Shown here in pieces: positions 37,051 to 41,519 of a stretch of 64,000 nucleotides of DNA; position 1 is the first letter of the stretch; each line of letters begins with the position of its first letter. A program made the position numbers and the translations under genes. The stretch is from Nitrosopumilaceae archaeon (GTDB lineage Archaea; Thermoproteota; Nitrososphaeria; Nitrososphaerales; Nitrosopumilaceae), in the NCBI GenBank assembly GCA_035631875.1, contig DASQHX010000013.1:124001-188000 (forward strand), given 5' to 3'. The notes beneath the pieces were generated by a model that saw only the letters and a list, made by a program, of their open reading frames with translations, did no database searches and had not been told where the DNA came from.

Positions 37051-37114
37051 AGAATTTTTTCGCTTTAACACAAAACTTAAATCTCCAAAATAATTCACAT
37101 CACGAGGGTTTCAA

Positions 37115-38269
37115 ATTCCAACAAAAAAAGCCAAACATGTAAACAAGTTTGGTAAACTCATCTTAGAAGATGGTACCGTTTTTAGCGGGATGGGTTTTGG
37201 TTATCCTTCTACGACTGTTGGCGAAGCAGTGTTCAATACAGGCATGGCTGGCTATACCGAAGCATTAACAGATCCTTCGTACAGCGGTCAAATTCTCACA
37301 CTCACCTATCCTCTAATTGGCAATTATGGTGTACCTGACCAATCAGCAAAAGATGAGGATGGAATTAAAAAATACTTTGAGTCTGACAAAATTCAGGTAC
37401 GAGGTTTGGTTGTTCATGAATTATCCCTTAGCGCAAGTCACTGGAATATTTCAATGACACTTGACGAATGGCTATATGATGAAAAAATTCCAGGAATTTC
37501 AGGAATTGATACAAGGGCGTTGACTCGAAAATTGCGTACTAGTGGAGTCATGATGGCAGCACTTGCAGTTTCTGAAACCGAAATTGATGAAAATGAACTA
37601 AAGAAAAAACTTGCAGCGGCAAAAAATTACAATTCTGAAGAGTTTATGGATGCTGTATCAACAAAAGAGCCACAAATTTATGGAAATGAGAAAGAAACAG
37701 TGGTAATAGTTGATACTGGAGTAAAAAACGCAATCTTACGAAATGTAAGAAAGCTTGGATACAAAGTCATCAAAGTACCATGGAATTACTCCATTGAAAA
37801 AATTCTTTCCTATGATCCAAAGGGTGTTGTTATATCAAATGGACCTGGTGACCCGCAAAAATGTGCTGAAACAATGAAAACTGCCAAGGCACTAATTGAT
37901 AAAAATATTCCAACTTTAGGAATATGTCTTGGTGCGCAGATATTGGGAATTGCAGGAGGTGCAGACACTTTCAAATTAAAGTATGGTCATCGTGGACAAA
38001 ATAAATCATGTCTTGATTTAGATAACAACCAAGTTTATGTAACAAGTCAAAATCATGGATATGGAATAGATCCTGATTCACTCAAAAAAACAAATTTCAA
38101 ATTATGGTTTACTAATACTGATGATAAAACAGTAGAAGGAATAAAACATAAAGAAAAAAAATGCATTGCTGTACAATTTCATCCAGAAGCATCACCTGGA
38201 CCTTTTGATTGCATGTTTGTATTTGAAGAGCTAAAACGCCTGATGGGGGAGGAAAATGCCAAAAGATGA
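37115..38269 (+). CDS. carA: Carbamoyl-phosphate synthase, small (glutaminase) subunit
   Basis: Supplies ammonia from glutamine to CarB for arginine and pyrimidine synthesis. The amidotransferase triad region has GICLGAQILG (nucleophile Cys), and the His/Glu are in VQFHPEASPGP. N-terminal CarA domain is complete only if translation begins upstream of ATG 37190: the conserved FGKLILEDGTVFSG lies before it. No ATG, GTG or TTG exists between the in-frame stop at 37091 and 37190; ATT at 37115, six bases after GAGGG, is the best start. It overlaps carB by 14 bases. Confidence 0.95.
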   Translation: MPTKKAKHVNKFGKLILEDGTVFSGMGFGYPSTTVGEAVFNTGMAGYTEALTDPSYSGQILTLTYPLIGNYGVPDQSAKDEDGIKKYFESDKIQVRGLVVHELSLSASHWNISMTLDEWLYDEKIPGISGIDTRALTRKLRTSGVMMAALAVSETEIDENELKKKLAAAKNYNSEEFMDAVSTKEPQIYGNEKETVVIVDTGVKNAILRNVRKLGYKVIKVPWNYSIEKILSYDPKGVVISNGPGDPQKCAETMKTAKALIDKNIPTLGICLGAQILGIAGGADTFKLKYGHRGQNKSCLDLDNNQVYVTSQNHGYGIDPDSLKKTNFKLWFTNTDDKTVEGIKHKEKKCIAVQFHPEASPGPFDCMFVFEELKRLMGEENAKR

Positions 38270-41200
38270 GTCACTGAAAAAAATTCTAGTTCTTGGCAGT
38301 GGGGCAATTAAAATCGGAGAAGCAGGCGAAAGTCAATAAAGTGACCGCAAATTCGACTACTCCGGTAGCCAGTGCCTCAAGGCCATAAGGGAAGATGGGA
38401 TAAAGAGCATACTTGTCAATCCAAACATTGCAACAATACAGACTGATACTAGATTTGTTGACAAGGTGTATTCCATTCCTGTAAATCCACAGTATGTGGA
38501 ATCTATCATAGAAACAGAAAGACCAGATGGTCTGATGCTGGGATTTGGTGGACAGACTGCACTAAACTGTGGAGTAAAACTAGATGAATTTGGCGTATTG
38601 AAAAAATACGGAGTCAAAGTTCTTGGAACCCAGATAAAAGGAATCCAGGCAACCGAAGACAGACAACTTTTCAAAGATGCAATGATAGAGTGTGGAGTTC
38701 CTGTACTGAAAAGTAAAACTGTTTACAACTTTGATGAAGCAAAAAAGATTGCATCAGAGCTTGGATATCCTGTAATCATACGAGTTGCATATACCTTAGG
38801 TGGAAAAGGTGGCGGAGTTGCGCACAATGAAATTGAATTGCATGAAATTGTGAGCCGAGGTCTTAATGCAAGCTTGGTCGGTCAGGTATTAATTGAAGAA
38901 TATGTAGGTCATTGGAAACAAATCGAATATGAAGTGATGGCGGACCATTCTGGAAACAATGTCATTGTATGCAACATGGAAAACGTGCTTTCAATGAGGG
39001 TGCATACTGGCGACAATGTCGTGGTTGCTCCATCACAGACACTTGACAACTATGAATATCAATTACTAAGGTCTGCCGCACTACGCGCTGCAAAACATGT
39101 TGGCATAGTTGGAGAATGTAACATACAGTTTGCACTAGATCCAAAATCAGATAAATACGTGGCAATTGAGATGAATCCCAGACTCTCACGCTCTTCAGCA
39201 CTTGCAAGCAAGGCAACAGGTTATCCAATTGCATACATGGCAGCAAAAATTGTAATGGGCTACTCACTTCCAGAGCTGGTCAATCGCATAACAAAAACTA
39301 CGACTGCATGTTTTGAGCCATCACTTGATTATATTGTATGCAAACATCCACGATGGGATTTTAGCAAGTTTGAGCTTGCAAATCGAAATCTTGGGCCCAC
39401 AATGAAGTCTGTTGGGGAAGTCATGGCAATTGGCAGGTGCTTTGAAGAATCACTACAAAAATCAATAAGGATGCTTGAAATTGGAAACGACGGTCTTGTT
39501 GCAAACCGTTCAGCTGATAAAACATATGAAGTTGAAGAACTAGAAAATAAATTACAAAATCCTGATGATCACATATTATACCATGTTGCAGAAGCACTAA
39601 AGCAAGGAATTTCAGTTGAGCGAATATACAAACTTTCAGCCATAGACCCATGGTTTATTGAAAAAATACAAAACATAATTCAAACAGAAAAGAAACTAAA
39701 AGAATCAAAACTAGAGCCAAATCTTTTACAGAAAGCAAAGCAATTTGGTTTTTCAGACAAACAAATTGGACGACTAGTTGGAAAAGATGATCTTGATATC
39801 CGTAAAATGAGAAAAGAATTAGGAATCATACCTGTTGTAAAACAAATAGATACACTTGCAGCAGAGTGGCCTGCAAAAACAAACTATCTGTATTTGACAT
39901 ATGGTGGAACTACAAACGATTTTGATGTTGATAAAAACCAAGAAAAAATTGCAGTCTTGGGTGCAGGCCCATATCGCATAGGAAGCAGTGTAGAGTTTGA
40001 CTGGGGTACAGTAAACATGGTTTGGGGTCTTAAAGAGAACGGAGTAAAGGAAGTGGTTGTAATTAACTGCAACCCTGAGACAGTCTCTACTGATTATGAC
40101 ATTTGTGACAGACTGTATTTTGAGGAGCTAACACTTGAGAGGGTATTAGATATTGCAGATTTTGAAAAACTAACTGGTGTTGTTACAGCAGTAGGAGGCC
40201 AGACTGCAAATAACCTTACTCCAAAGCTTGCAAAAAATGGAATCAAAATAATAGGTACTTCATCAGAGGATATTGACAGGGCAGAAAACCGTTCAAGCTT
40301 TAGCAAAGTCTTAGACGAACTTCATATATCACAGCCTCCATGGAAGGCATTTTCAAGTCTTGCTGATGCCAAAAAATTTGCAATTAACGTAGGATATCCA
40401 GTATTGGTCAGGCCATCATATGTCCTAAGTGGGGCTGCAATGAAAGTTGTCTGGTCGCACGAGCAACTAAAAAGATACTTGGAAGAGGCAGCAAATGTTT
40501 CGCCAGACTATCCTGTCGTCATTACAAAATTCATGCTAAACTCACTTGAGGCTGAAGTAGATGGAGTTTCTGATGGCAAAAACGTAGTGATTGGCGCTAT
40601 AGTAGAACACATTGAAGGTGCAGGTGTACACTCTGGAGATTCTATGATGTGTATTCCACCATGGAGTCTAAGTAACAAAATAATTGAAACCATAACAGAC
40701 TATACAAACAAGATTGCCATTGCCTTTAAAATAAAAGGGCCATTTAATTTGCAATTTCTCATCCATTCAAATCAAGTGTATGTCATTGAGCTAAACATAC
40801 GTGCATCACGCTCCATGCCGTTTGTTTCAAAATTTGTCAAGATGAATCTTATCAGCCTTGCATCACGCGCAGTTCTTGGAAAAACATTACCACCAGTGCC
40901 AAAAGACAAATGGCGAAAAACACATTCGTATGGAATCAAAGTACCGCAATTCTCATTTATGCAGCTAGAAGGGGCTGATATCATACTGGGAGTTGAGATG
41001 CAATCAACTGGAGAGGCTGCATGCTTTGGAGACAGCTTTTATGATGCGCTATCAAAGGGATTGATATCTGTAGGATACTCTTTACCAAATGAAGGTGCTG
41101 TTTTAATTACTGCTGGTGGTTCTGAAAACAAGGAAAAACTCTTGCGAACCTCCATGCTGTTAAAAAATCTAGGCTACAAAATCTATGCAACAGAGCACAC

Positions 41201-41519
41201 TGCTGAATTTTTAGCAGAAAAACATGTAGGAAATGAGATAGTCTACAAAATTAGTGAACCTGAAAGAAAACCAAACATTGCTGACTTGCTTTATGAACGC
41301 AAGATTAACTTTATAGTAAATGTGCCAAGTACATCAACTCTGGAAAAATATGTTGGGATGCTTTATGACGAATTTCAAATTAGACGAAAGGCAGTAGAGC
41401 TTGGAATCCCAGTACTAACTACAACTGAGCTTGCAGACTCTTTTGCAAAAACACTTGAATGGCTGCAGCACAACGAAACCACAAAAAAACCATTAGAGCC
41501 ATACGATAGTTTAGAATAA
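38256..41519 (+). CDS. carB: Carbamoyl-phosphate synthase, large subunit, interrupted by a 21-base insert with in-frame stop
   Basis: Makes carbamoyl phosphate from bicarbonate, two ATP and CarA-derived ammonia. ATG 38256 follows GGGGGAGG and overlaps carA. The first 25 codons (ILVLGSGAIKIGEAGE) are followed by seven extra codons (S-Q-stop-S-D-R-K, 38331-38351), then FDYSGSQCLKAIRE continues in the same frame. In E. coli this motif reads EFDYSG without a gap. Without the insert the protein would be 1080 residues, the family length; both ATP-grasp halves and the C-terminal MGS-like domain are intact. A downstream GTG (38466) would remove the first nucleotide-fold strand. See the insert entry. 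Confidence 0.92.
38313..38366 (+). other. Candidate bulge-helix-bulge-like mRNA hairpin around a 21-nt insert (38331-38351)
   Basis: The outer stem pairs 38313-38319 with 38360-38366 (seven pairs, one G-U) and continues irregularly (38321-58, 38322-57, 38323-55, 38324-53). The middle helix pairs G38326, C38327, G38328 with C38348, G38347, C38346, next to a G-A mismatch (38325/38349). The inner stem GUCA (38332-38335) pairs with UGAC (38342-38345). Bulges are 38329-38331 and 38350-38352. Cutting after the second base of each bulge removes exactly 38331-38351. The G-A mismatch and bulged outer stem make it a relaxed motif. Confidence 0.45.

Follow-up and report, generated by a model that had tools for sequence, protein, structure and literature searches.

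The window, the whole 64,000-nt stretch of DNA analysed here, contains carA and carB, with the end of carA (38269) overlapping the carB ATG at 38256. Translation of carB from 38256 gives MPKDESLKKILVLGSGAIKIGEAGESQ-stop-SDRKFDYSGSQ... and thereafter a single open frame to 41519, so that the junction region reads ...GSGAIKIGEAGE-SQ-stop-SDRK-FDYSGSQ.... The interruption is a 21-nt insert at 38331-38351 with an in-frame TAA at 38337-38339, exactly as claimed by the original prediction, which was made from the sequence alone. No start codon (ATG, GTG or TTG) is present between the stop in the insert and FDYSG. The first start downstream of that stop is GTG 38466, and initiation there would lose the conserved N-terminal motif of carB (the FDYSG...NPN segment). 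The parts of the gene, as interpreted below, are as follows.

38256-38330, + strand: carB exon 1, codons 1-25, MPKDESLKKILVLGSGAIKIGEAGE; matches PDB carbamoyl-phosphate synthase chains when joined to exon 2.
38331-38351, + strand: predicted 21-nt intron AGTCAATAAAGTGACCGCAAA, phase 0, between Glu25 and Phe26; homologous inserts in dereplicated carB genes, covariance model.
38352-41519, + strand: carB exon 2, FDYSG... to stop; open frame with third-position-biased divergence.

When joined, the carB exons align without a gap at the junction to solved carbamoyl-phosphate synthases (PDB chains). The nearest named relatives of the source genome are Nitrosotalea and MAGs labelled 'Nitrosopumilales' and 'Thaumarchaeota'. 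Full-score carB is present in a single copy, with no second full-score CarB in the source genome. Differences from one relative (L003) at codon positions 1, 2 and 3 number 22, 6 and 160, respectively, and this third-position-biased divergence shows that carB downstream of the insert is under purifying selection. The claim that carB is otherwise intact rather than decaying thus held, both by this measure and by the recurrence of the insert in relatives.

Recurrence and length of the insert in related genomes

In a first survey, in which the insert-free N-terminus was compared with 60 relatives, many had the same in-frame TAA, others had no insert, and others showed a break of frame at that place. 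The comparison of close relatives called for by the original prediction was then made on 145 dereplicated carB genes from related genomes, one of which was assigned as intronless by direct reading of its sequence: the same site is interrupted in 101/145 and cleanly empty in 44/145. Since the identical site recurs in many independent assemblies, the insert is far beyond chance. Its position is constant, at the codon junction Glu25/Phe26 in all intron-bearing carB read, and intronless carB has a continuous ORF that reads GGN GAR TTY GAY without a scar. Intron-bearing named records include Nitrosotalea bavarica, Nitrosotenuis chungbukensis and Nitrosopumilus salaria, and the intron is absent from many Nitrosopumilus and Nitrosopelagicus records. 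The sequence, its conservation and this distribution are shown directly.

Most genomes have an insert of 20, 21 or 22 nt, and the deeper relatives have one of 23-28, 30, 33 or 40 nt. Length is not divisible by three in 36 of the 69 distinct intron cores, and an in-frame stop is found in all of the phase-keeping remainder (33/33). The stress laid by the original prediction on exactly 21 bases, in phase, consequently failed; that length is accidental and is not conserved among relatives. Two introns, of 40 nt (L219, genome G156) and 33 nt (L207, genome G165), have an enlarged inner part and come from a single genus, the other members of which have 21 nt or none, indicating that the interior of the intron can expand. 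One draft genome (G367) has two different intron-bearing carB contigs (L040 and L101), which probably represent two populations in one bin.

A covariance model found only one match in the source genome (38325-38352, 41 bits) and never more than one per genome in 40 relatives, the places compared falling in carB. The carB intron is therefore not mobile. A group I, group II or mobile intron was also considered and rejected; the insert is only 20-40 nt, the covariance model found no dispersed copies, and no Rfam family was matched within the window.

Predicted RNA fold and splicing enzymes

The RNA spanning the insert and its flanks is predicted to fold into the following elements.

38313-38319, + strand: outer helix, exon 1 strand ATCGGAG; pairs with 38360-38366 in the minimum-energy fold.
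38325-38328, + strand: central helix, exon strand GGCG; pairs with 38346-38349.
38329-38331, + strand: 5′ bulge AA^A; predicted cut between 38330 and 38331; a 3-nt bulge in every distinct sequence checked.
38332-38345, + strand: inner hairpin, GTCA (38332-38335) with TGAC (38342-38345), loop ATAAAG; covariation and minimum-energy fold.
38346-38349, + strand: central helix, intron strand CGCA; in the window copy three pairs and one G-A, where CGCC, CGTC or CGCT with four pairs is usual.
38350-38352, + strand: 3′ splice site AA^T; predicted cut between 38351 and 38352; geometry relaxed, with a larger internal loop in the fold.
38360-38366, + strand: outer helix, exon 2 strand CTCCGGT; minimum-energy fold and comparison of the 5-bp core.

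Across 67 distinct intron-bearing sequences, exon GGCG pairs with CG(C/T)(C/T/A) near the 3′ end of the insert. All four pairs form in 61/67; in the other 6/67, to which the window copy belongs, three pairs form and the first position is G-A instead of G-C or G-U. The 3-nt bulge that follows is mostly A(A/G)A and leads into an inner helix of at least 4 bp. Excision from between the second and third bulge bases to A(A/G)^T would give GGY GAR TTY GAY in all 67 sequences, and GEFDYSG is back in frame after the predicted excision in every distinct version checked; deep relatives beyond this set, with lengths up to 40 nt, also fit. Folded alone, the window RNA forms the same helices in its minimum-energy structure, with a modest free-energy z-score of -1.7.

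Inner-helix pairs vary on both sides (UA/CG/UG, CG/UA/AU and AU/GC/UA), with two-sided covariation at three of the four pairs of the hairpin. A two-sided change of the central helix is seen in a deep relative (L082), where the exon codon is GGT for GGC and the intron partner matches it (GGTG/CACC). For 23 aligned sequences the covariation score was 0.436, compared with 0.241 ± 0.020 in shuffles, cells changed on both sides numbered 23 rather than 6.2 ± 3.1, and 97.8% of cells were paired in the fitted register as opposed to at most 54% in slid versions. These shuffles were not corrected for relatedness, and the structure tested was derived from the same sequences. With the reservation that the statistics ignore relatedness, the covariation is shown and the fold is maintained by compensatory change.

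The exons carry a corresponding signature. The Gly24 codon is GGC in 66/67 intron-bearing sequences versus 1/35 intronless ones (Fisher p about 1e-24, uncorrected for relatedness), and the 5-bp core of the exon-exon outer helix (CGGAG/CTCCG), which depends on third codon positions, is complete in 78/79 intron-bearing versus 7/45 intronless genes. These differences are not explained by protein coding and show that the carB exons are constrained by the RNA fold.

The reading frame alone permits three cut registers, of which the bulge-helix-bulge (BHB) geometry alone picks one. The 5′ splice site lies in a 3-nt bulge, as the class requires, and the predicted cut after its second nucleotide agrees with the reading frame. 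The strict hBHBh′ test failed; the 3′ site AA^T is not in a second 3-nt bulge and lies instead in an internal loop, ahead of an outer helix of 5-7 bp, that keeps the central helix apart from the outer one. Only membership of the strict type is ruled out by this, relaxed forms being counted as accepted members of the class (PMC2738675, PMC4090602). A canonical BHB, in which the 5′ end of the intron and exon 2 would form the central helix, was also tried and rejected, no pairing being found in any of the three frame-allowed registers.

The source genome encodes two EndA-type proteins (PF01974, 108 and 79 bits; 178 and 189 aa) and RtcB (591 bits). The higher-scoring EndA matches solved tRNA-splicing endonucleases and keeps a GPGIDHAP segment, which the other does not have. 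An α2β2 EndA, associated with relaxed BHB sites, has been reported from Thaumarchaeota (PMC4090602), and the two genes agree with such an enzyme. Several tRNA genes of the source genome match the tRNA model over 93-120 nt, which is consistent with introns, and ARAGORN left candidates unresolved.

The conserved and covarying splice structure, the restoration of frame and the presence of splicing enzymes support reading the carB insert as an EndA-spliced pre-mRNA intron of the tRNA type with a relaxed BHB. This interpretation is held with high confidence; the presence of the enzymes is shown, and cleavage and ligation are inferred without RNA or protein data. In the proposed mechanism, exon 1, the 21-nt insert and exon 2 of the transcript would fold into the relaxed BHB, a two-subunit EndA (α and β) would cleave the 5′ bulge behind its second nucleotide (AA^A) and the 3′ side at AA^T, and RtcB would ligate the exons to give ...GGC GAA TTC GAC... 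(GEFD) and a normal CarB. An unspliced message would yield a 27-residue peptide only.

Alternative explanations

Stop-codon readthrough, or a reassigned TAA, would produce a CarB with seven extra residues, and it is favoured by the insert of the source genome being in phase and the frame being otherwise open. It can nevertheless be set aside almost completely, because many relatives have inserts of frame-shifting length (20, 22, 23, 25, 26, 28 and 40 nt) and the in-phase ones hold stops. The insert would also disrupt GEFDYSG, which is gap-free in solved carbamoyl-phosphate synthases, and it is exactly absent from 44 of the carB genes compared. Translational bypassing, in which the ribosome would take off at Glu25 and land at Phe26, skipping the hairpin without RNA cleavage, could account for a short hairpin-forming gap of variable length with exact continuity of the protein. 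However, the take-off codon GAR finds no match in the triplets that precede the landing site (CAA, TAA, AAA or CAG, for example), the exon-intron central helix, exon-exon outer helix and 3-nt bulge together have the geometry of an EndA substrate, and EndA and RtcB are encoded in the genome; bypassing is thus considered improbable.

An in-frame stop in one draft assembly has at first the look of a sequencing or assembly error or of a decayed pseudogene, yet the feature recurs in many independent isolates and MAGs, the sequence downstream is under purifying selection, and the genome has a single full-length CarB, leaving this explanation next to no room. Production of CarB in two separate polypeptides, or by initiation farther downstream, draws on the existence of a 27-residue 5′ ORF and of a frame that is open from GTG 38466 onward. 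Initiation at 38466 would, however, delete FDYSG...NPN, which is conserved at the protein level in relatives and under purifying selection, and the coding sequence of exon 1 is itself conserved; this alternative is also regarded as highly improbable. As for the options raised by the original prediction, a removable mRNA micro-intron is supported by the covarying structure, frame restoration and enzymes (splicing itself being inferred), readthrough failed on the frame-shifting lengths in relatives, and the view that sequencing error was less likely held, error being rejected by recurrence. Intronless relatives have one continuous ORF, which speaks against a downstream start.

Known introns, evolution and the upstream region of carA

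The closest parallel to the predicted EndA-spliced carB intron is the cbf5 intron of Crenarchaeota (Desulfurococcales and Sulfolobales; Watanabe 2002, Yokobori 2009, PMC2738675), likewise a short EndA-type intron within a coding sequence. Those introns are 16-44 nt long, are cut between the second and third bulge residues, and lie at the codon of the catalytic aspartate with a mostly unconventional BHB and a history of gain and loss; cbf5 of Cenarchaeum and Nitrosopumilus is intronless (PMC2738675). Both cases share a highly conserved motif as insertion site, a mostly unconventional BHB, and ancestral presence with losses. They differ in that carB is a metabolic gene of the Nitrososphaeria lineage with an independent site, and in that splicing has been experimentally shown for cbf5 and is inferred for carB. 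Relaxed (HBh′) pre-tRNA introns have the same 4-bp central helix, 3-nt bulge and inner helix, and are cleaved by two-subunit EndA, the kind of enzyme predicted to act on carB. The carB intron differs in residing in an mRNA, in having helices whose exon strands consist of constrained codons, and in an exon-exon outer helix that occupies the place of the pre-tRNA anticodon stem. In Haloferax volcanii, EndA processes the mRNA of HVO_1309 and removal of its BHB intron is seemingly needed for efficient expression (PMC7714728); unlike that of carB, this intron lies in a 5′ UTR rather than a coding sequence, and in Euryarchaeota.

A 2020 paper gave crenarchaeal cbf5 as the only other reported archaeal mRNA BHB intron besides its own 5′-UTR intron (PMC7714728). 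No EndA-type archaeal intron in a coding sequence other than that of crenarchaeal cbf5, and no earlier report of a carB intron, was found in the open-access literature searched; many journals lie outside it and priority is unproven. The carB intron represents a new gene and lineage for an already known class of EndA-type mRNA intron.

The intron was found in families f1, f8, f3, f5, f10, f11 and f12, of which we take f1 to be Nitrosopumilaceae and f8 to be Nitrososphaeraceae-like genomes, and its presence in these families suggests an old gain with repeated clean loss. When a CarB tree is made from sequence 3′ of the intron, presence or absence of the intron requires no fewer than 12 changes along it, compared with 38 for shuffled labels; this is a quick tree in which deep forks remain open. 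From distribution and tree it is inferred that the carB intron is old and mainly vertically inherited, with several clean losses, for example in marine Nitrosopumilus and Nitrosopelagicus. A single early gain is likewise an inference, resting on the same quick tree. In the intron-bearing genus g44, one carB (L205, genome G169) is intronless and still has GGC at the junction; this resembles a clean loss of recent date and offers a natural control. In a genome from another order (L229, G082), carB has the intron and the CarB is placed inside family f10 in the tree, representing gene transfer or a misbinned contig.

If carB is spliced as inferred, archaeal mRNA splicing is not limited to cbf5 and coding introns are not a crenarchaeal oddity; carB would be a second ancient coding-sequence case, in an essential gene of central biosynthesis from archaea that are abundant (ammonia-oxidising archaea and relatives). 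Gene finders probably mis-call carB in many genomes, as a truncated start or a pseudogene, and more introns of this kind may be concealed in what look like frameshifts. How mRNA introns persist or are lost beside coupled translation becomes directly testable, with relatives that have no intron serving as controls. A bolder reading, which we consider doubtful and in which regulation is purely inferred, is that gating of carB expression is what maintains the intron. Translation of the unspliced message would stop or shift frame soon after codon 25, and the balance between translation and EndA/RtcB splicing would set the supply of carbamoyl phosphate. Were this true, archaea would have a coding-sequence intron with a regulatory role, which lines that do not need such control (marine Nitrosopumilus and Nitrosopelagicus) would have lost.

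Upstream, an in-frame TAA and an internal Met at 37190 bracket a stretch of carA in which no ATG, GTG or TTG occurs. An ATT at 37115 comes after GAGGG (37104-37108), which resembles a ribosome-binding site. In some 40 Nitrosopumilaceae loci there is again a GAGGGT with AT(T/A) and a K-rich start close behind it, an arrangement that suggests that carA has a conserved start codon of non-standard type (AUU/AUA). A box (AAAACTTAA, 37068-37085) lying about 30 nt before the ribosome-binding site is conserved in many relatives and could be the carA promoter, which would leave a very short leader.
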